A DNA stretch of 64,000 nucleotides. It comes from Favolaschia claudopus (lineage: Eukaryota > Basidiomycota > Agaricomycetes > Agaricales > Mycenaceae). Positions 8,108 through 63,640 of this stretch are shown here, piece by piece (the stretch's first letter is position 1; every line of letters begins with the position of its first letter). Under the pieces are notes generated by a model. That model saw nothing but the letters and a program-made list of their open reading frames with translations. It had not been told where the DNA came from and searched no databases. Location: the NCBI GenBank assembly GCA_037176885.1, contig JAWWNJ010000030.1, positions 1,364,001 to 1,428,000 on the forward strand. Direction: 5' to 3'. The position numbers were made by a program, and so were the translations under genes.

Positions 8108-8380
8108 TGATTGCGGTGACGGGTGATGTGTCCCTCGCAGCGAGCGCTCTCGGGCCGGAACCCAAAGTCGGCGCGAAGCTGCACAAAACGGACTAAAACT
8201 AAATACGATGTACATGCAATGTATATGGGAGGTGGGTGGGAGAACTAAAAACGAGAGCACGGGCGAAGGAACGCGCCCGGTGGTGGTGGTAGAGGAAAAA
8301 GACGCGATGAGTCACAGTGATGACTCCCACGTGCATTCCTCCGAGTGTATACACTCACTAAGCTGAGCCAACCGTTACGA
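8108..8380. other. Spacer, nothing recognised
   Basis: Short ORFs only. Confidence 0.4.
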
Positions 8381-8905
8381 GGGCGGCTCCACGTGGCTCG
8401 GCTCAGGCTCAAGCCGGCTTGAGCCCGGCTCAGCCGCAGCTCGGCCACAATTTTGCTCAGCCTGCGCACCCGTTGTCCAAGGGGTATAAATGCTGTTTAA
8501 ATACACATTTGCAGTCCACCAATGCCCTTCACCTTCATATTTCACGTCTGCGCTGTTCATAGTGTTTTCGTCACCATGAGAAAATGTATTTAAAAATAAA
8601 TTTAATAAAGATTTAATGAGCAACGTGGCTCGCCAGTGTCGACGGCGTCAAGAGAGCCTGTGAGTATGCTTAAAAGACTAGAAAGGCTGTCTGTATGCTA
8701 TTTCTATGTTGTGCGGTCGATATACAGTGCTGAAATTGCACCTTTTTGAAAAGCTTGCTGAGCCGTTGCGGAGCCGTGGATGAGCCGCGAGCCACGTAAG
8801 CCAGCCGTCAAAAATAGCTCGGCTCGGCTTTTTGCGGTGATGGCTTTGGAGCCATCAAAAGCCGAGCCGAGCCAGCCGAAGCCGAGCCGCGGCAACACTA
8901 CCAGT
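8381..8905. repeat. AGCCG/CGGCT-rich inverted repeat region
   Basis: The left block (8381-8460) is packed with GGCTCGGCTCAGG-type words. The right block (8757-8905) is packed with GAGCCGAGCC-type words, including the complementary GCGAGCCACGT. Together they form degenerate inverted arms around about 300 bp of AT-rich DNA. This is probably a decayed inverted-repeat element. A second GTGGCTCG word is at 8623. Confidence 0.4.
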
Positions 8906-12562: not shown

Positions 12563-13200
12563 CTAGGAACGCACAATGACAATAGAGGGGGCAGTGACAG
12601 CGACACGGGCAGGGCGGGTACCGGACTTGGGGAGGGGCCAGTGGGGATACAGCTTTGCTAGCGTGAGCCACCGGAACCTGGAAAGGGCATCTGCTACGGA
12701 ATTGTCGTCTGTTGGGATCCAGACAGGGCGGAAAGTGAAGTCCTTCTGAACGGCAAGGAGAGCGAACTGGCGGAAAAGAGCTTGGGTAGGAGGATGATCA
12801 ATAGAGCCAGACTGCAGACAGGTAGAGATGGCCTCGTTATCAATACGAAATATAACCTCCAACCCAGCCCAACAGTGACCCCAGACCTCCGCTGCCCGTA
12901 GCACAGCACGCATCTCCTTCCAATGGATCGGATGGCGTTCATACTTCACCGGGACAGGTTCAGTGAAGAAAAGGTCACCACCTCCCCAGTAACCGCCCAA
13001 ACTCAGCTTACCACTAGCATCCGTGAAGATCTCGATGGTGGGACGCGGGGGTCCAATGGCGAAAATGCCATTGAAAGACGGGAGGAAGGTGTTCCACCAC
13101 GCAATATCGAGTCGAGCAGAGGAAGGGAGACGGCGGCGCTGGTGACGGGGGAGAAGTGAAAGGCGCCCACGAAGTCCCGGATTCGGCGGGTGAAGAATCG
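12563..13200 (-). pseudogene. RNase H-like domain of DIRS/Ngaro-like element
   Basis: The frame is open from about 13200 through PRPTIEIFTDASG (first catalytic Asp), IHWKEMRAVLRAAEVWG (Glu), FRIDNEAIS (second Asp) and WIPTDDNSVADALSRF (last Asp). This is the full acidic set of the RNase H-like domain that follows RT in DIRS-type elements. After about residue 190 the reading becomes Pro/Arg-rich and ends at 12563. It follows the RT in a shifted frame. Confidence 0.6.
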
Positions 13201-14372
13201 TCCAACGGGAATCACTGACTGAGCAAAGACGAGATGGCCACAGAGTTTCTCCAGGTCATGGTAGCTGGCAGTCCGACGAGACAGGCACCCATCCAGAAAG
13301 ACAAGGAGGCGAGCAAGCTTATCTTTGGGCAAACGAGCCTGCATAGCAATGGTGTCCAGCTCAATGCCAAGGAACTCAAGGCAGTGGGTCGGACCCTCCT
13401 CCTTGTCGCTGAGATTGAGAAGCCTAGCTCCTCCGCAATTGCCCGGAAGACAGCACGACCATGACGAGCATACTCCACACCCTTGGAAGCGGGGGTGACA
13501 TTGAGCCAATCATCTAGGTAGTGCTGAATAAGTGCCATGACCTCATCCCGAGAGAGGAGGACCCAGTGATGGGCCTCCGCAAAGTAATTGTAGATGCGGG
13601 GTCCCGTACGAACCCCAAAGGGCAGGAAGATGTCGAGGAATAAACGCCTCAACCACTCAAAGCCCATCAGGTGTATATGATCAAGGTGAATAAGAATATG
13701 CCTAAAAGCCGCCTCAAGGTCTGCCTTGTAAAGGAAAGACCGTTCGCCAGCCTGCCGGATGCGCTCAATCGCCCCCATGACAGCCTCATACACCAGATGG
13801 CCAAACTCCGCTGGGATAGCGTCGTTGACGGATGAGCCAGGAGGGTACGAGAGATGATGGATACGACGACGCTTCTCACTATATTTCTTGGGTACGGAGC
13901 CTAGCGGGGACAGGACAGGCTTCACAGCAGAGTCTGTGATATCGACAATACGCCCCAGAGAAATCTCGTGAGCAATGTCTTTATCTACTGTCTCGGGAAA
14001 TGCAAGTGCAGAAGGAAGAGGGACAGGGGCAGAGGAAGAGGGAGGAGGCATACGCGCAGGATCCACACCTAGAAGGACACCATGGCGGATGGCAGAGACG
14101 AGGGTCTCAGCAAACACCTGATCTGGGTAATCAATGAGGGCGTGCGCCCAAGCCGTGCAGCTTTGAGGGCGGCATTGGCTTTGAATGAGGAGTCGTGAGC
14201 GGAAAGAGGAGGTCTGTATTAGGGTGTGCTGGAGGAAGCAGTGGTGGTGGTAGCACCTCAAAAGTAGGAGCATGGTCAGATTCCACAATTTTGGCAGATG
14301 ATGATGGGGGAGACAAGACTTCCCTGCTCGATTCCGAGCGAGGAGAGCCAGAAGCATCTCCCCCTCGCTCAC
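13140..14372 (-). pseudogene. Reverse transcriptase of DIRS/Ngaro-like element
   Basis: Ordered RT motifs are visible: SPLGSVPKKYSEKRRRIHHL, SSVNDAIPAEFGHLVY, SFLYKADLEAAFRHILIH (motif A with Asp), FLPFGVRTGPRIYNYFAEA (motif B) and QHYLDDWL (catalytic LDD). The frame then shifts near 13420 and resumes as HCLEFLGIELDTIAMQARLP and KLARLLVFLDGCL, the thumb-like region of the same family. The N-terminal 60 residues are low complexity and probably not native. It is disrupted, so not expected to be active. Confidence 0.7.
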
Positions 14373-17089: not shown

Positions 17090-17252
17090 TACTGTTTTGA
17101 ATCGTCCGAGCTGACGAGGTATAGTACTTTAGTAGTATATACTACCTGGGCTTTATAAGCGTAGTCAGTCGTATCTATCGTATCTTCGTATCTTCGTTTG
17201 TCGACACTCGCTACTCTATTGGAACACCTCATTGAGCAACAGTCCTGTCTGG

Positions 17253-18200
17253 TCAAAGCAAGATTGGCCCAATTGATTTTTCACGCGTGAATGAATTCTC
17301 AGGCAAATCCAATGACACATTGACAGGTTCGACTGTAAGATGGGGCTCACTCATAAGCAACCTACTCCACGTGATTACTGTGACATTTCTTTCGTTTCCC
17401 ACCACAAAGTCATCCACTTTGCGACGAATTACACATACTGTAGTATTACGACCAAATGTTCAGGTGACGGGTGACAGGGACCTGTGAACTGAACACTTTT
17501 GGTTGCGGTGACGGTGACACTTGGGTTTTTTCGCCAAAAATGGACGAAAAACGTCAAAAAAAAAATCCGGGCCGGCATTCGCCGGCCTACCATATAGGGT
17601 AATTTAATGTGCTCTGAACACCTTATCCAGTGAACATTGTAGGTGACAGGTGACACCCAGTGAACACTTGGTCGAAATACGCAAAATTCTATTTGGCACC
17701 CCGGGGTGGCGGAGTACCCGGGGTGCTAAATAGCATTTTTCTATTTGACACCCGTGACGTAATTCTGTCGATCACTTCTTCGCGAGAGCCATCGCGATGC
17801 TCATTCTTCTTGCTCTATCTGGCTATTGCTTGCAATGACCACAGATTGCTATACACCTTGTCTCTAGTCAATTGAAATGCGCTCTGTCTGTAGCTTCAAG
17901 TACGAAGCCCAAGATTCAAATACTATATAAACTCGTCAAATTCCATCTTTGATCTTTGAGCATTGCAAATCCAACAAATCATGCGCAATTTGCACGGTGA
18001 ATTTCATATATACAAGCACAAGTGCTGCTTGGCTCCCCTTTCTCTTTTCCCTCTTCCCCACAATGTCCGAGTCGTATGAAGCCTGCGGGCGAGCGGAGCG
18101 AGCCCGTGCGAACAGCGAGCGAAGCGAGCTGTTGAGGTGGGTGATGTACAGGATATCTGGGTGTTTGAAACGGGGGCGGGGACCACGACGTTGTTGGGTT
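17253..18200 (-). repeat. Direct repeat (pLTR-like) of the Penelope-like element, 3' copy
   Basis: About 948 bp matching 21603-22560. I saw only single-base indels and no substitutions between them. It starts GGTCAAAGCAAGATTGG, contains a truncated CTGTAGTATT MITE (17438-17690) and a hairpin around GCACCCCGGGG (17698-17732), and ends inside the hammerhead ribozyme. Confidence 0.85.
17438..17690. mobile_element. CTGTAGTATT MITE, right end truncated
   Basis: The left end CTGTAGTATTACGACCAA follows TA. The right side keeps ACACTTGGTCGAAATAC and then loses the final bases. The complete relative is at 41200-41399. The same truncated copy appears in the other direct repeat (about 21797-22050), so the insertion predates duplication of the repeat. 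Confidence 0.7.
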
Positions 18201-18249
18201 TGTGCGCAAGAACGTTTCGTCACACTGTGACTCATCAGGTATTATCCCC
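18178..18249 (-). ncRNA. Hammerhead ribozyme (type I), GUC cleavage site
   Basis: Reading the minus strand from 18249: stem I 5' strand GGGGA-TAA-TAC, core CTGATGA (18238-18232), stem II GTCAC-AGT-GTGAC, core GAAA, stem III CGTT-C-TTG ... CAA-C-AACG, triplet GTC (18189-18187), stem I 3' strand GTG-G-TCCCC. All conserved core positions are present: C3 to A9, the G10.1-C11.1 pair, G12-A14, A15.1-U16.1, C15.2-G16.2 and C17. Stem I has an internal loop, as natural ribozymes need for fast folding. Cleavage would fall between 18187 and 18186, at the edge of the 3' direct repeat of the Penelope-like element. The partner repeat at 22560 keeps the cleavage side but lacks the CTGATGA half. Confidence 0.85.
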
Positions 18250-18657
18250 TACCATTCACCGGTGCTCGTATTGAAGCGCGCTATCAGGTCCAACGCGGAA
18301 TCTCTTTGGGGACTCGACGACGATTGGGGTTCCCGACAACCCATATTCTCGGTATTCCTGCTTGCCGACGTGCCTGTATTACACGCAGCAATTTTACGGC
18401 GGAGCTAACGAGTATCAATATAATCTTTTTCTACCTCTTCACGCAAAACATGTCTTGGGCCCGGTCAGAGGCCAGAAAGGAAGAACATGAAATACGATTC
18501 AAGGCCCACAAGGGAACGAAAAAGGTATGATTGAATTAAATGGGTGAAGAACGACAGGTACGGTATATTTTTTCGAAAATCCGAAGATGCCAGCCGCTGC
18601 AGAGCGCGACCCGTAGGGTCGCGCGCGGCGGGCATCGAGGATTGAGAAAAAACCGTC

Positions 18658-20707
18658 CTAAACGTTCGACGCTGCCGATTCGTGGTGTGCTGCAAGTGTG
18701 TCCCGGTTGTGAATATTCAGCCGGTCACCCAGCGCGACCGGTTTTTTGAAGGAGGCCATGAAGCGGTAGTCAGGGTAGCCGTTCCCCGCTGTGCTCAAGT
18801 TCTCCTCAAGGTCGTGCCAGATGGGCCGCAAATTAATGACGTCCCATACTGGATTGTGGGTGAGTTTAAGGACGTGCAGCTCAGGCCCACCATCTGGGGC
18901 AGATGCCGCAGAGGCAGTGAGCGCGCGAGGGCGCTCCACCTTGTACTGTATTTCCTCAAAGACGCGTTGAAGCCAACGTCCTGGATACCCCCGTGCACGG
19001 AGTCGACGGTCAAATTCGAGGCGAATTTGAGCAAAGTCAGATTCCTTACAACATATACGCACATAGCGTATAAGTTCCCCTTTGACCCAAGCACGCTTGG
19101 AGTCTTCGGAGTGGCAGGAGTTCCACGGGATGTACAGATAAGCGTTGAGGGCTTTCTGGTATACATCGGTTACAATCCGCTTGCGCGGGTTGAATGCTGG
19201 AAATCTCGGGTCGAGTTCCAGCCCGACGTGAACATCCAAGAAGGGAAGGCGGTATTGAGATTCCGACCATTCCATCTTCATATTAGGGTGCAGGGACCCA
19301 AAGCGGTCTTGGAAACGACGTACATCCGCCAACGTTCCTTTGATGATAGCGAAAGTATCATCAATGAATCGCCGGTAGAATAAAAGAGTCGCTGTAAATT
19401 CCTCGAGCGCGTCCGCTTCGTATCCAGCCAGGAAAAGATTAGCATACGTAGGTGCGCATGCAGTGCCCATAGCTGTGCCGATGACTTGGCGGTAAATGGT
19501 GCCAGCGAATTGGACGTAGTTGAATTTTAGAATGAGCCGCAGCAAGAGAACAGTGAGTTCCGCGCGGTTTCTAACGTTCAATCGACTAGCTTCGTCCGGA
19601 GTCTCAAACTCCATGGGCGAGCAGCCGAGTATCGAGGCAATCTGAGTAATCCCGTCATCAATAGGGATGTTGGGGTACATTGCGACGACATCGCCGGACA
19701 CCAGCCAGATGTCCTCGCCCAGAGGCAGCTCCACATTGAGAATATCGTGGCAGAAGGTTTTCGAGTCACGAAGAATCCAAGGGAACTTGTCCAGGAGAGG
19801 TTTGATCTGGTAGTCGACCCACACTGATGCGTTAGCGAGCAGCGTGCCAAAAGTAGGGACAATTGGACGGCCAGACGGAGGGGATTTGTGGATCTTGGGG
19901 ATGCCCTTGAGAACCGGGACCTTATCGAGCTCTTCAACGCAAGGTCGAATGAGCCATTCAAACTGTTGTCTCGAGACAAGGTCGCGTGATTGCTCAACGA
20001 TGGCTCGTAGGGACAATAGAAGGTTGATATGGTCCGGCTCTTCCTCCACGTAGGAGTCATTCACCAAGAGTTTCAATGCCGCGTTATGGTACCATTCAGA
20101 TGTGACCAAAACTAATCCTAGATTCTTGTCGGCAGGGACAGCGAGAACACTGTTGTCTGCCAAGAGTCCAAGGAGACCATCCAAGTCTTCCTTACGGATA
20201 TTCGGGCGTATGAACAGCGCTTGCTTACTCAGGACTTCGAGTTCGATCTGCTAAGACTTTCTGCTTGCACGCTCTACTGAGCGCGCGTTCAATCGGCCCC
20301 TCGGCATCGGGGTTTGGTATGTGGAAAGTGGGGACGTAGCGTGGTTGTCCGTTATCCAAGAACACACCGCCAAAGTGCTTGTGAAGCGTTGGCTGAACCT
20401 CTTTATCAACTCGTAAGCGGAGTCGGCGATCAAAATCGTCGAGCGCGGTAGATACGAGCGGAACCTTAGTCGCGCCTGCAGGGCGGGGCACGAACTTCGG
20501 GTTAAGGGCGAGGATCTTCTGTTGGGTTGGATTCAGTTGTAGCTCAGTCCTGTTGTGAAACGCGCGATTTCTCAAACGGGTGTCAAAATACAACGGGGAC
20601 ATTCTGCTGATAACGAATCTAGTGCGAGCGGTACTATCGGCGGCAAAGAAAGAGTCTGGGTAGGTGTCAGGTCGGTGGTGGTGAAACCGTGGACCAGGGC
20701 TACTCAC
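18658..20707 (-). CDS. Penelope-like reverse transcriptase (one frameshift)
   Basis: The N-terminal part is 20707-20225 (LNPTQQKILALNPKFVPRP then DDFDRRLRLR, the conserved Penelope RT0-like lead). The main part is 20184-18658, preceded in frame by VLSKQALFIRPNIRKEDLDG. One base indel near 20250 separates the two. Motifs in order: VPADKNLGLVLV, GIPKIHKSPPSGRPIVPTFG, WLVSGDVVAMYPNIPIDDG (motif A), IYRQVIGTAMGTACAPTYAN (motif B), FYRRFIDDTFAI (catalytic IDD, motif C), YRLPFLDVHV (motif D), VYQKALNAYLYIPWNSCHSE (E/thumb). The protein ends at ALGDRLNIHNRDTLAAHHES without a GIY-YIG nuclease. It copies element RNA, presumably primed at free 3' ends. The indel may be a sequence error. Confidence 0.85.
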
Positions 20708-20743
20708 CCAAGAAGAGGTACTAGAAGGGGGGCATGCGGGTAA

Positions 20744-21611
20744 TCAATCCGAGTCGTCGTTGTCCGACTCCCCGGTTGTCTCCGGATCCGCGGCTTTGGC
20801 TGTTGCCTTGGCCTTCCCACTCGACTTTCCCTTGGACACTGAGTCCTTCTTCGACTTTTCGCCGGCGTCGTTGCCGCTTGCGTGCTTTCCGCTGGTACCC
20901 TTCTTCTTCTCCAACACAGGTTTCTCCTTCTTCTGCAGGTCCAACTTCGTCTGCTTCAGCGGCTTCGACGAGTCCTTCGAGGACGACGCCTTGGCTGCCT
21001 TCTGCTTCGGTTTGGTATTCGTGGTCTGCTTCGAATTGGAGGCTGCGGGAGCAGGGCGCTGCTTCTTCTTCTCCGGTTCCGTCGACTCTTTCGCAAGGGA
21101 TGCTAGGAGCAGAGGGAGGGATGTGAGACAGCCTTGAGGGATATGAGCAGAGAAGCCGCGTCGTACCAAACTTGGTGACAACCGCGGTGTTAACCTTCTC
21201 TGCGATAATCTCCTCAATAGGGCGGTTCGCATCGACCATCTCAGCGTCAGCGCGTGCGGTCAGGACAGCCTGCGCGTCTGCTTCCTTGGTCGTAGCATCT
21301 CGGTCAAGACGAGCCGTAAAACTCGAAACGGGTGCCTTTCAGCTGCTCCGTGAGAGTGGCTTTGACAGCGGAGACGCACGGTTGCCAGGCCGTGGTGTCG
21401 GGGTCACACAGCAAGAGTAATGATACGCACGCAGTTCTCGGTGAGAGTTGCGGCGAACATGTCTGCATTTTTGGCTACGTCGACGCGCTCCCTCGCCTTC
21501 TCTACCTGGACCGCGTAAACGGTGGTCAAGTAGGTGCTGGTAGGACGAGTGAGCGGTGGCAAGATCTTTCTCGGCGGCAGCAAGGGCTTCCACCACACGG
21601 ACATCGGTCAA
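20744..21611 (-). CDS. Upstream ORF of Penelope-like element: coiled-coil, Lys/Ser-rich protein
   Basis: Spliced reading. An N-terminal heptad-like part (VVEALAAAEKDLATAHSS, VEKARERVDVAKNADMFAAT) is followed, after an intron near 21426, by LDRDATTKEADAQAVLTARA and EEIIAEKVNTAVVTKF. A clear 64-bp intron (21166-21103, GTACGA...CTCCTAG) then leads to a Lys/Ser/Ala-rich tail (KESTEPEKKKQRPAPAASNS...) ending in acidic ESDNDDSD. The stop at 20744 lies 37 bp before the RT ORF. The 5' end runs into the direct repeat and no clear ATG was fixed. A basic, coiled-coil nucleic-acid-binding role is inferred. Other frames here (20721-21239) are shadows. Confidence 0.55.
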
Positions 21612-22560
21612 AGCAAGATTGGCCCAATTGATTTTTCACGCGGTGAATGAATTCTCAGGCAAAATCCAATGACACATTGACAGGTTCGACTGTAAGATGG
21701 GGCTCACTCATAAGCAACCTACTCACGTGATTACTGTGACATTTCTTTCGTTTCCCACCACAAAGTCATCCACTTTGCGACGGAATTACACATACTGTAG
21801 TATTACGACCAAATGTTCAGGTGACGGGTGACAGGGACCTGTGAACTGAACACTTTTGGTTGCGGTGACGGTGACACTTGGGTTTTTTCGCCAAAAATGG
21901 ACGAAAAACGTCAAAAAAAAAAATCCGGGCCGGCATTCGCCGGCCTACCATATAGGGTAATTTAATGTGCTCTGAACACCTTATCCAGTGAACATTGTAG
22001 GTGACAGGTGACACCCAGTGAACACTTGGTCGAAATACGCAAAATTCTATTTGGCACCCCGGGGTGGCGGAGTACCCGGGGTGCTAAATAGCATTTTTCT
22101 ATTTGACACCCGTGACGTAATTCTGTCGATCACTTCTTCGCGAGAGCCATCGCGATGCTCATTCTTCTTGCTCTATCTGGCTATTGCTTGCAATGACCAC
22201 AGATTGCTATACACCTTGTCTCTAGTCAATTGAAATGCGCTCTGTCTGTAGCTTCAAGTACGAAGCCCAAGATTCAAAATACTATATAAACTCGTCAAAT
22301 TCCATCTTTGATCTTTGAGCATTGCAAATCCAACAAATCATGCGCAATTTGCACGGTGAATTTCATATATACAAGCACAAGTGCTGCTTGGCTCCCCTTT
22401 CTCTTTTCCCTCTTCCCCACAATGTCCGAGTCGTATGAAGCCTGCGGGCGAGGCGGAGCGAGCCCGTGCGAACAGCGAGCGAAGCGAGCTGTTGAGGTGG
22501 GTGATGTACAGGATATCTGGGTGTTTGAAACGGGGGCGGGGACCACGACGTTGTTGGGTT
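21603..22560 (-). repeat. Direct repeat (pLTR-like) of the Penelope-like element, 5' copy
   Basis: Matches 17253-18200. Differences seen are all one-base indels, for example 11 versus 10 A in the A-run at 21913, CGCGGTG versus CGCGTG, and GCGAGGCGGAG versus GCGAGCGGAG. It holds the start of the upstream ORF. Homology stops at 22560, about 12 bp beyond the ribozyme cleavage position. A short word (CCGAGTCGTATGAAGCCT) from inside the repeat is duplicated right after the end. Confidence 0.85.
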
Positions 22561-23763
22561 CCGAGTCGTATGAAGCCTACTCAGCTCCGCATCCCAAAAC
22601 CCGTTCTCTCCCCAGTTCATGGCCAATGTAACGCTGGGAGAGGTCGTTTGGTCTCGTTCGAGACGATCTTCTTCCGCGCATCCTCCCGATCGATGGCAGT
22701 GATTCGAAGTGGAATTGGGACCAGACCGTTCCGGGTGACCATTCCAGAGGACTATTGTGTCCTCGCGGGAGAAAATCCCCTCAATGGCCGACATGCAGCC
22801 CATTATGGCCGATGCAAAGCAAGCGTTTTACAGCCGGGAGTCAATTCTGTCTGTATCCAGTCAAAAGCGGTGGCGATTGTACGCTAAGTATCATTTTTCA
22901 AGGTTGGTCTCGCATTCAAATATCATGATATCTTGCTCATATTACTTAGCTGCGCCTCATCGTCGGCGCTAATGATAAGCGGTGGATTCGTTCACACGGG
23001 AAATGGAGGAAAAGCAAGGAAATTTTGCTAATTTCATTATCAATACGGTCGGGATGACAGATGTTGCATCAGAGGTCATTCTTGGAGTCAGGGTTGCTTG
23101 GAATCATCGTGAGGATGAGTCAAAGCAGAATGGGAAACAATTAGGCGCACCGATAAGTTGAATAGGTGGAATCAAACCGTGGGAGATTGGAAACACGATC
23201 ACGTGGGCGCGATTGAGATGACTGGTCTCCGTTGTAATTGGGTCAATAACACTGCATACACGAGTCAGAGCGAGTCATTTGGGGCTGACTCAATTAAGGA
23301 TGACTTGGGAAGATACACTGACTTGTAATGAGTCAGTCTTGGGCAAAAGAAGGTGAGGAAACGGCGAGGAAAGTGTTCGCATTGGGAGATTGAAGCAAAA
23401 TATTGGTGAAATGGGACAGATATATCGACCAATATAGTAGATGACTGTGAATGACTCTCAGAATTTGTTCAACTTGATATCTATTTGTAGTGTACAAACA
23501 ATGGGGGTATATAAGGCGAGCGAAATTGTATCGTAGGGTAGTGAATTTTGACCCCACTTGATTGCTGTCTGTCTGTCTGTTGCGATTTTACGGTTGTCTG
23601 GAACGGATTGAACGGTCTTGGAGAATTGTTTTGCGCTTGGTCTTGAACTTCATTGGATCTATCTTTACTACGAAACACATCACATTAACTATCTGAGCCT
23701 GTTACAATCTATACGAAACACCACACTATCACTATCACATATTTTGGATTCGCATTTGTCATA
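22561..23763. other. Spacer, unsupported ORFs
   Basis: An ORF-like stretch at 22610-22890 has no domain. A TATA-like GTATATAAGG at 23508 precedes no recognisable gene. A short (CTGT)n run is at 23566-23581. Confidence 0.35.
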
Positions 23764-24650: not shown

Positions 24651-24994
24651 TATACTTCGGCACGAACCCCACGAACTAGCGCACTTACGGAGATTAATTG
24701 AAGGTTGAACTTGACTGTCGGAATTATTGGTTGGAATTGATTTGGAATTTGGTTGCTGCTGGTCGGCGATTGTTTTGTTGTTGGTTGGGTTAGGTTTTGA
24801 CTGTTGAGTATTTCACCTTTGGTCTCACCGTACGTGCTTCACTAACAACCAGGATTACAATTTTCGTCTTATGTCAAGGCTACTGGCACGCGTTGAGCGA
24901 GAGAGTCTTCTTTCCCCGCTCTCTTCGAGAAGTTGAAGCTCAATCGCTTCTCTGAACCGCTTGCTGGTTTTAGTGTCACCCAGACTCCTCTTTA

Positions 24995-25657
24995 CAGTGG
25001 TGGCAAATAGAAATTGCCGTGGCTTTTTGGTAAAAATCTCGATGTATACTTCACCGAATGACCTCAAATAAGATGTAGAGATGGGTATGTGATACTTCTG
25101 TACCTCTTAGAACACTCAGCAATATATCATGCACTGACAATGCATCAATAATGGATGGTTTCCGTTTTTTGCCATATCCGGAAAAACACCAGCAAAGTAG
25201 TGTCATAATAGGATAAAAGTACTTGAAAAACAATGCTAGTTCTCACTTTGATTGACTGGAATTGATCGTCATTTGAGCTCACAACAGCCGCTCGAAGTAG
25301 GTCATTTTAGCTATTTTCTCTGCATTTTCAGCTATTTTGTGTGAAAATAGCCAACTCTGAGCGGTTGTTGTGAGCTCAAATGAGGGTCAATTCCATTCAA
25401 CAAAAGTGAAAACTAGGATTGTTTTTCAAGTACTTTCATCCTATTATGACACTTTTTTGCTGAGGATACATTGAGTCTTTCCAGATATGGCAATAATAAG
25501 AAACTGATGCATTGTCAGGGCATAATATATAGCTGAGTGTTCTAAGCAGTACAGAGGTATCATATATTTATCCCAACATTTTATTTCAGGTCATTCGGTG
25601 AAGTATACAGCAAGATTTTGGCCAAAAAGCCACGGCAATTTCTATTTGCCACCACTG
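24995..25657. mobile_element. Fold-back element, 663 bp palindrome
   Basis: Almost the whole element is two inverted arms of about 320 bp (diverged by roughly a tenth) meeting near 25326. The ends are CAGTGGTGGCAAATAG / complement, flanked by TA. Shared internal words such as CATAATAGGATAAAAGTACT link it to the smaller fold-back at 47194-47516. It lies directly upstream of the C48-like reading frame, whose first 20 codons would come from the element. The arm's own translation (KKPRQFLFATTV) is seen on both strands. Confidence 0.85.
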
Positions 25658-25659
25658 TA

Positions 25660-43178: not shown

Positions 43179-43760
43179 TTGTTGATCCCCTTGTGCCGGA
43201 ACTCGACTCCCTCTCGCTTCCGTCACACACCGGCTCCTCAGTGGTCCGGACGCCCTAGAGCCGCACTGGCGGAGGAAATGGCGAACTTGGCAGAAAACGA
43301 TGTGTATGAAGTTGTTCCCACACCAGCTGGGGTGAAGCCAATCAGCACAAAGCCTGTCATGCGAATAAAGCTGGATAGCAAAGGGAACATTGAGGGTTAC
43401 AAGCTCCGCATTGTCGCCCGAGATTTTGGCCAGCAAGGGGGGAATCTAAAAGAAACCTTTGCCCCCGTTGCAAACCTTGAATCCATCCGCATCATATGTC
43501 TCCTTGCCGCCAAGTACGACCTTGAGCTCGACCAAATGGATGTTTCCACAGCATACTTGAATGGTGTCCTCGAAGACCCGGTCTACGTCTCCCCACCAGA
43601 GGGCACGGACATCCCAGGAGGCTTCTGCTGGAGGGCTATTTAGTGGTCTAAGTTGACGATCTACTCCTTGCAGCATCCTGTCGTTCATACATGGATGAGA
43701 TCAAAGGCATTCTAGCATCAACCTTCAAGATGCGCGACCTTGGAGCAGCTTCCTTTAAGT
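43179..43760 (+). pseudogene. copia reverse transcriptase, catalytic Tyr codon now stop
   Basis: EEMANLAENDVYEVVPTPAG, KPVMRIKLDSKGNIEGYKLR, FAPVANLESIRIICLLAAKY and LDQMDVSTAYLNGVLEDPVY are the copia RT signature up to motif A (Asp in QMDVSTAYLNG). About 100 residues are then deleted. The catalytic YVDD reads stop-V-D-D (TAA GTT GAC GAT, 43649-43660), followed by LLLAASCRSYMDEIKGILAS. It is a dead copy. Confidence 0.75.
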
Positions 43761-44561
43761 ATACTGGGTATCGAGATCAAACGGAATCGACAACGCCGCA
43801 CCATTTCCCTTTCCCAAACAAAGTACATTGATGCCGTCCTAAAACGCTGTGGGATGGCAAACTGCAACCCTTCCAAAACTCCAATGGCGACTACCTCACG
43901 ACTGACCACTGAGGACCCCATCGACAACACCACGCTATTCCAGATAACCATCAATGGGGAAACAGTCACATACCCTGGTGTTGTTGGCTCAATCCAGTAT
44001 GCAGTCCAGGGAACGTTAGCCTACCTCGCTGGTGTCCTTGGTCGCTACAGTGCGAGTCCTAAAGCGTGCCACTGGGAAGCAGTGAAGCACGGCCTACACT
44101 ACATGCACTACACCCGCGACCTAGAGCTCTGCTTGGATGGGTCAGACATCTCGGGAGACCTCGACTTCCACGGGTTTTCCGACGCTAGCTGGTCAGGCGA
44201 TGAGGACACTTCACGGTCTACGTCTGGTTACGCGTTCATATCCGGTCGAGGGGCACTGGGCTGGTCGAGCAAAAGGCAGAACATGGTGGCTCTTTCTTCC
44301 ACCGAATCAGGGTACATCGGGCTCTCAAACGCTGGACAGCATTTGGCCTGGCTTGAGACATTTTTTGCTGAAGTCGGACACGAGCAAACCGGCCCTACGG
44401 AGTAACTTATTCTGTGAGAACCAAGCAGCTATCGTCCTCTGTCGTGATCCTCAATTCCGTGCACGCACCAAGCACATCAAGCGCAAATACCACTTCATCC
44501 GCGACGACATTGTTGCCAAAGCGTTATCCGCTATGTCTCCACTCATGACATGGTCGCAGAC
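43740..44561 (+). pseudogene. copia RNase H region
   Basis: LGIEIKRNRQRRTISLSQTK, YIDAVLKRCGMANCNPSKTP, FHGFSDASWSGDEDTSRSTS (RNase H first Asp) and ALGWSSKRQNMVALSSTESG are classical for copia. After 44405 a frameshift leads to NLFCENQAAIVLCRDPQFRA and RTKHIKRKYHFIRDDIVAK, the RNase H C-terminus. It ends at a MITE-like element (44562). Confidence 0.75.
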
Positions 44562-56360: not shown

Positions 56361-57599
56361 CCTCTCTGCGTTCAGCTAAACGATCCAATATACTCGGGAA
56401 CTACTATATAACACTATTTAACAACCTATAGACAATCTCTATACTACAAGAATTAATTTGAATTATTCCTCCATTTATTTTTTTTAGAATCCACTTTTAT
56501 TTCTTGTTGTGCCTACGGCATATGGTAGAAATGAAGCTATCTAATATTTTTACTAACTCATATTCCATATTCTGTCCCATGATGTAAGCAGACTCGACAC
56601 AATGACTGAGTGATTGCAACCCAGTCCTGTGGCAATGCCACAATGAAGTAGTGGGTAATTCCCAGGTACTGTAAATCATTCCATCTTTGATGGATGCGTA
56701 ATCTGGCTTCCTGCCAGCCAACGCCGCAGCACACAACCCTTGTTCCCCATCATCTGATCCGTACCCAGACTGATGGAATTCCCTTTTTCGGCACAGTGCA
56801 GTGATGTGTCGGTTCTCTTTGGTGGCCCCCATTAAAACTCCCAGGCAACCTCCACTGGGATAAACCGCGGCCCGGGTGGGCAAAGTCCGAGCAGGTTTGA
56901 GTATGACCGCAAATACTGTGAAACTGGAATGTGCTGGCCGCCGGGTGATTGCCTGCTGTGATCCGAGGCCCGGATGATGGTGGGAAGTGAGACTGTGAGC
57001 AGTGACAAAGTCGGACCAACGATCACCAATGCCGGAAAATCGGTGGTGGGGAAGCCGGTGAGTGTCAAAAGTGTTTTCTCGCCGGGGCAAGGCATCACCA
57101 CAACAACATCGAAGTCGGCTGTCGTATCTGAAGTTCAGCACTCTGTCTTACTTACTTCAAGTTGACAAGCCCTGGAAGATTGTAGGTAACTCAGACGAAG
57201 TTTTGTCGCTTAATACCACACCTTTTGGTTGTTTGTCTCGGCTCTTGGGTGCTTATTCTCGGCTACTCGACTCGCTTATCCACAAGGCCAAAAAAGGGTG
57301 TCTTTTGGCTCGGCAAACAGAATGTCGCTTCACACTAACATAAGCCTGTATCTCATCCGAAAATTAATGGAGGCAAAAAAGGGAGTTCTGAGTGGAGGGT
57401 TCACACCTCCCTTTTTGCAGCCCATCTTTCTACCGTTTCGGCCAAAACTGCGCATTTGACCCCCAATTTTTCTATAGGTCTTCCCAATCTGATTCGGAAA
57501 GGCTAAAAAACAACAGAAGAAAAACGAAGAATACAAAAAACGACGAAAAAGGAAGCAAAAAAGGAGCGGAAAAAGGGATGTGTGAACGACCCTTTAATA
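56361..57599. other. Spacer; one long minus ORF without support
   Basis: ORF 57141-56497 (214 codons) shows no domain, signal or splice pattern. 57360-57595 contains further CTCCCTTTTTG words of the MITE that follows, including an inverted GTGTGAACGACCC / GGGTCGTTCACAC pair. Confidence 0.35.
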
Positions 57600-58105
57600 G
57601 GGTCATTCACGATAGCCTGAGGGTCGTTCACACCTCCCTTTTTGCGCTCCTTTTTGCGCTCCTTTTTGCTTCCTTTTTGTTCTCCTTTTCGCGGATTTTC
57701 GGATTCTGTTCGTTTTTCTTCGGGGTTTTTTGACCTTTTCGATTCAGAATGTCAAAAAGGGTGTATTGCAAAAAGAAATGGAGTGAAACGGCCAGTTTGA
57801 GCCAAAACAGTAGAAAAAATGGTGCGAAAAAGGGGGTTGAAAAAGGCTATCGTGAACGCTCCGTCCGGAACGTCCTTTTTCACTCCCTTTTTCACCTCTA
57901 TCTTTCTACTTTTCTGTATTCCTTCAACTCCTCACCCAAACCAAGTTGACCTTTTCATTGAGAGGTATGAAAAGGTTGACTTGACAAAAACAACCAAGTT
58001 CTACGGAGGTTTTTTGCCAAAACTGCAAAGTGGGCAAAAAGGGAGAGAAAAAGGAGAACAAAAAGGAAGTAAAAAGGGAGCCAAAAAGGCTATCGTGAAT
58101 GACCC
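57600..58105. mobile_element. TA-flanked MITE with CTTTTTG-rich inverted repeats, copy 2
   Basis: 506 bp. Ends GGGTCATTCACGATAGCC / complement, TA on both sides. Relative of 3022-3498, with the same internal copy of the terminal motif. Confidence 0.8.
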
Positions 58106-61096: not shown

Positions 61097-63640
61097 TTAA
61101 CCAATTCCAGTACGACCAGGCTGCATACCCACTAAAACCCCCCTTAAGGTAGTCCAGTCATCCGGCAGGGAATCTTCATCTACTAGTAAACCTGACCAAG
61201 TCCTCAGGACACTCTTTCTACTGAACGCAAGTGTCCCAAATTTTGCTTTGTTTGTAAGGATGCGATCACGCGAGAGTGCGGCATTAATATCTCTTAACCA
61301 CATTACCGCAATTTCGGCATCGGAGGCTATTCTTTCAGGATTACTGATAACACGGCTGACCCGGAGATTCCAGATCAATCTCCATGCCACAGAGACAAGG
61401 ATAGCAAAAAGTCTCCCCTTATGAGGTAAGATTTTACCCTTCTCAGACTTGAATTTCACGCAGTTACACCCGAGAATCAGGCCCCAGTTCATGGAGGGCC
61501 AATCTTTGAATTTTCGCGACCATAGTTCTCTTGTCAGTTCCCATATCAATTTCTGACCCGGTGCGTCGCACTCTAAGGCTATGTGTTCCAGCGATTCCGT
61601 AACCTTGCAAGACGGGCAATCACCCAACACACTCAGGGTATTATGGTGATACCAAAAATCACCCACACGAAAATGATTGTGAATGCATTTCCAATAAAAT
61701 TCTCGATTCACGCGAAGTAAATTTGCCGACCTAATGGACTTCCAAATCACCTGGTCGGATGGAGTGTATTCACACACCTCTGCAACGGAGCATCGAATCC
61801 GATCCAGGTTAACAAATGTTGATTTTCTAATCGTTTTATCCCCGAGTGATTTTATAACTTTATAAAACGAGCGCTGCGAACCTTCGCACAAGGCCACACC
61901 TGGTAACGTGAACATGATGTCACACTCTGTGTCTATTACCGTTTCGACCGAGTGTACAGCGGGGAAGCCATTCCCCCCTTTTGTGCTATCTAGTACGAAA
62001 CTTGTTCGCCCAACCCTTTCACACAGTCCACTAACTGTTGCCTTGAGCAAGGGCCAACTTGGATTCAGCCGATCATTTTCAAATTTGCTGCGCTCACACA
62101 CTAACGCCCGAAGCAAGAAGTCCGAAGAGGAGTAGAATATGATTGGGGTGAGTTTTGAAATATTCTGGACGCAATATAATACTCCGCCCAATAGGGCATT
62201 ACAACAGGTAAGTTTGATGCCGGGATTATCAAATGACAATAACAGTGTGATCTCTTCAACCGTGTCAGCGCATACTAACTTCATTTCCAGGCTAATTTTT
62301 GGTTCAAATTCCCCCGCATTTGATACACGGGGATATAGGTATATCACTGTTTCCGGTCCAGCCATACCGAGATTCCGTCTTCTTGCAGGGATCTCATTTG
62401 AGCAGTCCTCAAAAGCGAAAATCCGGAACCCCCGAGTCCAATCTGTGAGTTCATAATCGGGGTCAAAAAACATACGACGATCAGCCTCAGGGGCAAGTTC
62501 GTTTGAGGCCCGTTCTTCGGGGGTTAGCCGCAGCTCCTCACACATGTCATGGTTATTCATCGTTGGGTTCCATTTTGGATGGATTGTGTTCAGCACAATC
62601 TGTGCCATTTCCACACACTTACCCGGGTTTTCACAGCCAATCTCTACGCGATCATGTTGGCATGCAGGGCAACCGCAGTTTTTTCGGCCAGTTCCAGAAG
62701 GATTTATTGTGTGTGGCCTACGAGGCACAACGGTCGATCGCTGGGCAATGGCACACAGTTCCCGCACAGACCTTACTTCGTGGTCAAGCCGGAGACATCT
62801 CGCAGGCTTGGTGCGGCAAGCCAAGTTGTAGGCATTAGAAGCCGCTGAAGGATGTTTCCAGATCGGCATTTCCTTTCGGATCTCCGTATTGAACGACAGC
62901 GCGGTAAATTTCACACCGTACTTTTCAGCCGTTTTAATCATGCACTTCAGTTGATCAGGCAATTTGGTTTTCTTGGAAATGGGAACATGAATCCCCTGCA
63001 GAAAGATGTTCTTGATTTGCCCTGGGTAATAGTGGAGATAACTCTTCTCCAAAAAGTCAGACAGTATGAAATCCACGAAGTAGCACCATCTTGCTCGTTC
63101 CTTTCCATGAACCAAATACGTTTGAAGATTCACCAGATCAATCGCCTCGTTTCGGGCCATCAAATCGAGGACCTGTTTTCCGCCCTCAAGGACATCTAGA
63201 GACATTGTTTGCTTCCCAATGCGCGCTTTTTTGCCATCCCACAGGAAGCTGTTCTGTAGTTCAACCAGTTCTTGCTCCACTTCTTCGGGCATACCTTGCA
63301 CTCGGGCCAGGTATTGTGTTCTTCCACCCACTACCATGTTAATAATGTGTCGTTTGCCTTCGAATCCTGGGTTGGACAAGCTCCACCTTTCCAGGTCATT
63401 TCTCACTTTGGAGACTACGGTAGGCCACGGTGTTCTGTACTCAATTCCGTTTCCGATCCAGGCGCCGAGAATTCGGCAACAATCGCCGTCTGCGATAATT
63501 CTGACACTGTCATTCAATTTACCGCAAGAATCAGCTGCATTAATCATTCTTGTTTCGACAATTCGAGACCGATAGTCTACACGTCCGTACGGAAGGATTA
63601 CCGTCTTGCTTTCGTTGAATTTTGCTGTTGAAGCGGCACA
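61097..63640 (-). CDS. LINE ORF2, thumb, RNase H-like and zinc-ribbon region
   Basis: About 816 codons from the first Met (63547), with the frame open upstream into the RT frame break. CRILGAWIGNGIEYRTPWPT and GKRHIINMVVGGRTQYLARV are the post-RT thumb of L1/Tad-like elements. NALLGGVLYCVQN and IIFYSSSDFLLRALV resemble a decayed RNase H (Glu replaced in the first). WKCIHNHFRVGDFWYHHNTL then GDCPSCKVTESLEHIALECD is the zf-RVT zinc ribbon (C-x2-C...H-x4-C). The protein ends GMQPGRTGIG. Confidence 0.75.
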   Translation of the reverse strand, partial: CAASTAKFNESKTVILPYGRVDYRSRIVETRMINAADSCGKLNDSVRIIADGDCCRILGAWIGNGIEYRTPWPTVVSKVRNDLERWSLSNPGFEGKRHIINMVVGGRTQYLARVQGMPEEVEQELVELQNSFLWDGKKARIGKQTMSLDVLEGGKQVLDLMARNEAIDLVNLQTYLVHGKERARWCYFVDFILSDFLEKSYLHYYPGQIKNIFLQGIHVPISKKTKLPDQLKCMIKTAEKYGVKFTALSFNTEIRKEMPIWKHPSAASNAYNLACRTKPARCLRLDHEVRSVRELCAIAQRSTVVPRRPHTINPSGTGRKNCGCPACQHDRVEIGCENPGKCVEMAQIVLNTIHPKWNPTMNNHDMCEELRLTPEERASNELAPEADRRMFFDPDYELTDWTRGFRIFAFEDCSNEIPARRRNLGMAGPETVIYLYPRVSNAGEFEPKISLEMKLVCADTVEEITLLLSFDNPGIKLTCCNALLGGVLYCVQNISKLTPIIFYSSSDFLLRALVCERSKFENDRLNPSWPLLKATVSGLCERVGRTSFVLDSTKGGNGFPAVHSVETVIDTECDIMFTLPGVALCEGSQRSFYKVIKSLGDKTIRKSTFVNLDRIRCSVAEVCEYTPSDQVIWKSIRSANLLRVNREFYWKCIHNHFRVGDFWYHHNTLSVLGDCPSCKVTESLEHIALECDAPGQKLIWELTRELWSRKFKDWPSMNWGLILGCNCVKFKSEKGKILPHKGRLFAILVSVAWRLIWNLRVSRVISNPERIASDAEIAVMWLRDINAALSRDRILTNKAKFGTLAFSRKSVLRTWSGLLVDEDSLPDDWTTLRGVLVGMQPGRTGIG

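Follow-up and report, generated by a model that had tools for sequence, protein, structure and literature searches.

Hammerhead ribozymes in Penelope-like elements were reportedly described by Cervera and De la Pena in 2014 and by Luense et al. in 2017. One group of such elements, the telomere-linked Athena, Coprina and Terminons, is endonuclease-deficient. As far as the available parts of the respective papers go, the hammerheads of Penelope-like elements are called minimal (PMC6155905, PMC7761336, PMC7229834), usually without helix III or tertiary-loop interactions (PMC6155905, PMC7761336), and their role is called unknown (PMC7761336), while the elements themselves are suggested as helpers of animal retrozymes (PMC7761336, PMC7229834). 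According to the accessible portion of the study of a lizard element, the hammerhead is located at the start of the ORF and cuts solely when the protein is present, and reverse transcription begins at two adjacent internal sites (PMC11167929). Five Hammerhead_3 matches are given for Pleurotus ostreatus, with no element context in the available part of that paper (PMC5040776). None of the papers listed in our searches of the literature deals with fungal retrozymes or with helix-III hammerheads in fungal Penelope-like elements; an earlier description may exist in Cervera 2014, Luense 2017 or a 2021 paper on Penelope-like elements.

The locus considered here lies in a 64-kb stretch of DNA (the window) from a genome of 264.6 Mb in 460 contigs. 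All evidence comes from searches of this one genome, the fungal comparison beyond it being at the level of proteins only. The features resembling published Penelope-like elements are the type I hammerhead, the Penelope-type reverse transcriptase (RT), tandem or partly tandem units, and a tail downstream of the hammerhead. The fungal set is distinguished by a helix III of 4-6 bp, accompanied by an internal loop in stem I, in contrast to the published hammerheads as they appear in the available texts, by the absence of a recognised endonuclease, and by the presence of non-autonomous kin. Moreover, its hammerhead follows the stop codon of the RT ORF by about 0.4 kb, whereas in the lizard element, in the available part of its description, the hammerhead contains the ORF start (PMC11167929). 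As in Athena, Coprina and Terminons, no endonuclease has been found and the hammerhead is near the 3' end, but the fungal copies are inside contigs, and some of them have target duplications; no telomere repeats were seen by eye in the 70 nt following the tails or in the other copy flanks inspected.

The hammerhead motif of the window

The minus strand of the window at positions 18249-18178 (72 nt) contains all core positions of a type I hammerhead ribozyme and three stems. The sequences that define the core, CUGANGA, GAAA and NUH, are read here as CUGAUGA, GAAA and, at the cleavage position, C17. The outer part of stem I, GGGGAU/GUCCCC, consists of 6 bp, the last pair being U-G, and is followed by an AA bulge and the inner part, UAC/GUG (3 bp including one U-G). 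Stem II, GUCAC-AGU-GUGAC, is a perfect 5-bp helix preceded by CUGAUGA and followed by GAA, and stem III, ACGUU/AACGU, has 5 bp and an 18-nt loop, after which comes C17. According to the core geometry, the predicted cut separates C17 (18187) from G1.1 (18186). The core, the three stems with the perfect stem II and the internal loop of stem I, and the position of the cut all agree with the original prediction.

Rfam covariance models gave no hammerhead at E<=5 over the whole 64-kb window. On a 251-nt stretch, Hammerhead_3 (RF00008), the sole Rfam hammerhead family matching the motif, scored 18.9 bits (E 0.13) compared with the gathering score of 48.5, with the catalytic half only being aligned, although the Rfam families have the same core. 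At eight further loci all matches were below the threshold, with a sub-threshold Hammerhead_3 match in five of them. The original prediction had named the lack of an above-threshold Rfam match as a result that would speak against it, and formally this is the result obtained. We set it aside because the stems covary (see below) and because a home-built covariance model finds the motif as its single match in 64 kb, with 39 bits and E 6.4e-8, the E-values being rough. The nine sequences behind this model, two of which are near-identical, belong to other families of this genome and do not include the family of the window element. Model R1 gave a further match at 8292-8390 (11.7 bits, E 0.26), which was rejected as a hammerhead, the core being absent.

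The minimum free energy fold of the 72-mer contains the outer part of stem I, stem II and stem III, while its folding energy has no advantage over shuffled sequences (z 0.01). In a 221-nt context a different fold is preferred (energy z 0.10). RNAalifold, applied de novo to the alignment described below, proposes another structure or helix, not the hammerhead.

The covariation analysis was based on an alignment of 16 sequences, from which L008, L016 and copies without the substrate side had been excluded beforehand. Five pairs in this alignment are changed on both sides, yielding 12 such cells compared with 4.2 in shuffles, and none of 500 shuffles reached 12. Pairing amounts to 85% in register versus 23-54% when slid, and the number of pair types is below most shuffles, 488 of 500 being at least as high. 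As expected for a hammerhead, paired changes are found in all three stems. In stem III, pair 4 changes from U-A to C-G, and pair 6 is A-U, G-C or C-G; in stem I, A-U is replaced by G-C in pair 2; in stem II, A-U is replaced by U-A in the fourth pair, the support here being weaker because the first three pairs are invariant. Twelve of twelve family variants, chosen and cut by hand, can form all three stems with every pair made, and have identical unpaired core positions.

The Rfam scores below the threshold and the energy z-score of 0 are what one would see if the resemblance to a hammerhead had arisen by chance. Against this, apart from the covariation and the fact that the other-family model gives one low-E match and no other, the short core pattern has 154 matches in the genome compared with 0 for the reversed-pattern control, and we regard chance resemblance as extremely improbable. 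Judged from its sequence, the motif looks like a genuine hammerhead ribozyme.

The element copy and its repeats

The hammerhead is part of a 5'-truncated element copy at 18085-21611 (body, hammerhead and tail; minus strand, as are the parts of the copy and its repeats given below), delimited by alignments to other copies and by empty sites. In the order of transcription, the copy comprises upstream coding remnants in other frames at 20225-21239 (in related copies the open frame covers about 1000-1230 aa), the RT ORF of 508 aa at 18658-20184, a hairpin-forming stretch in the 3' UTR at 18580-18645, identified by reading, the hammerhead, and the 3' tail at 18085-18186, defined by copy ends and empty sites.

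It had been proposed that the hammerhead marks the boundary of terminal repeats of the element. The direct repeats in question, 17251-18200 and 21606-22560 (950 bp, 0 substitutions and 7 gap columns), were considered as element pLTRs and ruled out by two empty sites in contigs C52 (L070) and C145 (L071), where the flanking DNA is found together with a single copy of some 835 bp of the repeat, and with no element. Hence the long repeats consist of a 117-nt element tail and about 835 bp of duplicated host DNA. The 3' copy of this target duplication is located at 17251-18084, and the 5' copy, for which the comparison of the repeats was also used, at 21606-22443. Positions 22560 and 18200 are not element boundaries; rather, 22560 is the 5' truncation, inside loop III, of a 117-nt tail copy (22444-22560, from the sequence and tail alignments), which begins at ACCCAACAACG. 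Because of this truncation the left copy has the substrate side alone, and the original prediction rightly saw it as lacking the catalytic half. The tail copy is preceded by a 19-bp target duplication AGGCTTCATACGACTCGGA at 22561-22579, recurring at 22425-22443 and 18065-18083. In the simplest order of events, the 117-nt 5'-truncated insertion with the 19-bp duplication would have come first, and a second insertion at the same junction, truncated at about 21606-21611 and accompanied by the large duplication, would have followed. Since the window copy has a single hammerhead, it cannot make unit RNA alone; the unit-length or circular RNA suggested for it earlier is not expected from this copy, but may be produced by kin with hammerheads flanking the ORF.

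Other parts of the window contain three ORFs which, by reading, we take to be retroelement-like with an RT on the minus strand (13003-14372), copia-like with an RT (43179-44405), and LINE-like (61097-63547). Large imperfect inverted repeats are present at 24993-25659 and 57481-57757, parts of which match microRNA-type or small-RNA models below the threshold, probably due to the hairpin shape.

Reverse transcriptase and distribution of the motif

The assignment to Penelope-like elements, made in the original prediction, is consistent with protein homology. The RT of locus L050 is 28% identical over 94% to P0117, an RT carrying GIY-YIG (the Penelope type), and by this homology the RT of the element can be assigned to the same type. 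Named protein relatives include Armillaria, Mycena and Puccinia. Pfam searches with the RT yielded only matches below the cut-off (RVT_1, and stray HAM1_C and FAM92), and the PDB search gave no match. The GIY-YIG endonuclease was found neither in the window ORFs nor in four longer open frames (E<=1); in the available part of one source the endonuclease-deficient branch of Penelope-like elements is described as lacking it (PMC3846280). Distant relatives of the RT, with 26-28% identity, are located at C125:657749, C235:194042, C15:23653 and C235:198092.

The DNA search with the window element identified at least 30 places in the genome, and the RT protein search gave 85 matches (85 scored of 101 candidates). 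Among 30 RT loci (L036-L065), several of which are near-identical copies and thus not independent, the full motif is present 3' of the ORF in 22, and the catalytic half only in four (L039, L040, L047, L048). For L041, L045, L046 and L053 no motif was found 3' of the ORF within the flank examined; in three of these loci the RT match is followed after 1.8-2.0 kb, outside that flank, by a same-strand core (C14:793909, C27:1836542, C3:2320934).

Families with 62-72% RT identity retain C3, U4, G5, A6, G8, A9, G12, A13 and A14, while varying at positions where the core tolerates it: N7 is U or C, and H17 is C, or A in L060. As the search words contained the hammerhead core, this conservation is partly built in, and core loss would appear as missing loci. 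Deviations are seen in L008, where the core has changed from G12 to A, in L016, where the substrate side is cut off, and in one lineage (L026-L030, L039, L040, L047, L048), which has retained the catalytic half and lost the substrate half.

That this lineage still has several copies would be understandable if a once-active hammerhead were now retained as an RNA structure for RT binding or start, with cutting no longer important. The ends of copies, described below, also place the hammerhead near the likely RT start region, and in the lizard element insertion in vitro went on when the hammerhead was mutated, as stated in the accessible portion of that study (PMC11167929). However, complete motifs vary exactly where catalysis tolerates variation (N7, H17, loops), and the unpaired core is constant in the 12 drawn variants, L008 being a departure, which makes retention as a mere structure improbable in our opinion.

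Ends of copies, tandem arrays and target duplications

The 3' ends were analyzed in 23 loci (L001-L020, L023-L025) excluding L005, L007 and L009, in which the tail runs into another unit; the 3' ends of the window copy and of the C165 copy were judged from the empty site. All 5' and 3' ends are derived from local alignments and are good to a few bases. In the 20 tail loci bordering other DNA, the 3' end corresponds to 18081-18085 in 11 cases, to 18115 in six, and to other positions in three. The predicted cut is 72-102 nt ahead of the usual 3' ends. The 5' ends, on the other hand, are scattered, with no clustering at the cleavage site: in five loci (two of them near-identical) the 5' end falls within the 3'-UTR hairpin (18603-18634), and a start close to the predicted cut, at a distance of about 2 nt, is seen solely in the C134 tail copies. 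The 1.5-kb tandem repeat in C134 was considered as an element array and rejected, being merely a duplication that contains a tail copy.

Kin of the window element (C2, C30) have tandem units of the pLTR kind; the window copy has none, its repeats being for the most part target DNA. The tandem arrays, as well as the large duplications, rest on the assembly. The array C2:1612178-1624305 (L066-L068, in C2:1611696-1624784) is made up of 4184-nt units, 2.9 of them head to tail, which differ at a single position in 7944 aligned bases. It is flanked by a 482-bp target duplication, and contigs C177 and C6 represent the flanks joined with a single copy of the 482 bp. In C30:1665114-1669766, one unit and 531 nt are found within about 3.6 kb of duplicated sequence (L032, L069; C30:1661090-1673408), the 5' copy of the duplication having 378 nt more. 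Copies of the C30 flanking repeat elsewhere pass through both junction points, though the two were not seen together at any one locus.

Of 15 other copies with both ends, three have a duplication, which is 153 nt long in L003, 55 nt in L012 (one mismatch) and 11 nt in L008, the last being weak, while no junction duplication was found at the remaining 12 within flanks of 188-1500 nt. With just these three cases, target duplications as a general rule were dropped. Their size ranges widely, from 11 nt to about 3.6 kb, and for most copies none has been found.

Two-hammerhead units and a retrozyme-like family

In at least seven loci (C1, C2, C3, C15, C30, C57, C72; some of them may be alleles), an RT match is enclosed by two same-strand hammerhead cores with a spacing of 4042-4262 nt, the pairs being taken among the core matches listed of the 154. 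Almost half of all cores (75 of 154) have one identical core sequence. Eight same-strand pairs of this sequence are separated by 2513-3077 nt, six of them by 2513-2525 nt, and there is no RT match between any of the eight among the matches listed.

One such unit, L072 (C74:934300-937500), was read. It has 286-bp direct repeats with a full hammerhead in each (75.1 and 72.8 bits), no frame over 154 aa, and no convincing match to the RT (best tblastn E 0.002 over 25 residues). Two of its parts are common to the autonomous families, including that of the window: the 3'-UTR hairpin, for which the identity reaches 89% over 111 nt (L043), and the hammerhead plus tail (75%). The L072 interior has at least 43 genomic matches (40 of 106 candidates scored); because 13 of these, including L072 itself, are 99-100% identical over 1530 nt or more, the family has moved recently. 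By the sequence of the one unit read, L072 represents a retrozyme-like non-autonomous family in a fungus, about 2.5 kb long. The absence of autonomy and the hammerhead in each direct repeat are features of animal and plant retrozymes as well, but the length differs (150-400 in animals and about 700 bp in plants, in the available parts of PMC7761336 and PMC7229834), as does the 3' end, which is visibly common to autonomous elements of the same genome.

Possible role of the hammerhead

We consider it quite probable that the window motif is a selected-for hammerhead in the 3' UTR of a fungal Penelope-like element without a recognised endonuclease, and that flanking pairs of such hammerheads in full-length kin would yield unit RNAs that could be closed into circles. 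This explanation is based on the observed fold, conservation, covariation, positions, unit spacing and 3' ends, from which we infer cleavage, ligation and the form of the template. Against it count the Rfam scores below the gathering value, the folding energies and alternative folds, the low number of pair types, the deviating copies, the 5' ends that do not gather at the cut and, in the lizard element, insertion in vitro despite hammerhead mutations. Full-length relatives have one hammerhead before the ORF and another after it, at a distance of one unit, and cleavage of their long transcripts would release unit-length RNAs bearing 5'-OH and 2',3'-cyclic phosphate termini, which a tRNA ligase could close into circles. 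Reverse transcription would then begin in the tail, at 72 or 102 nt past the cut, as suggested by the 3' ends of the copies. As the tail would constitute the first 100 nt of a cut linear unit, a long copy would require a template that is either circularised or multimeric and uncut.

The hammerhead could also cut just to trim the 5' ends of read-through unit RNAs, with no circles formed, tandems being produced from uncut multimers or by unequal exchange. This is not exclusive of the preferred explanation, being its circle-free branch. A tandem transcript accounts equally well for the multi-unit insertions in C2 and C30, and the start of the C134 tail copies next to the cut is what trimming would leave; on the other hand, a cut linear unit, in which the RT would start within the first 102 nt, is expected to give only tail-sized inserts. 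Trimming without circles is a possibility that we take seriously, though we hold it less likely than not.

Returning to circular templates, a broader picture may be tentatively suggested, in which we place limited confidence: a two-tier hammerhead economy in a fungal genome, comprising autonomous endonuclease-less Penelope-like elements and a 2.5-kb retrozyme-like family that has only the 3'-UTR hairpin, the hammerhead and the tail in common with them. Both would be copied from hammerhead-made RNA circles, sometimes more than once round, which would give multi-unit arrays, and joined to broken DNA ends, which would give target duplications from about ten bases to kilobases.

With its complete helix III, the motif may be capable of monomeric cleavage and easy to assay. 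From the large number of copies, the probable start of reverse transcription can be located with respect to the cut. Moreover, a young non-autonomous family coexisting with an autonomous one that has the same 3' end provides sequence evidence, in a fungus, that retrozymes are linked to Penelope-like elements, as has been suspected. With the ribozyme recurring both in related elements and in a short family devoid of the RT, its part in making RNA templates becomes testable.
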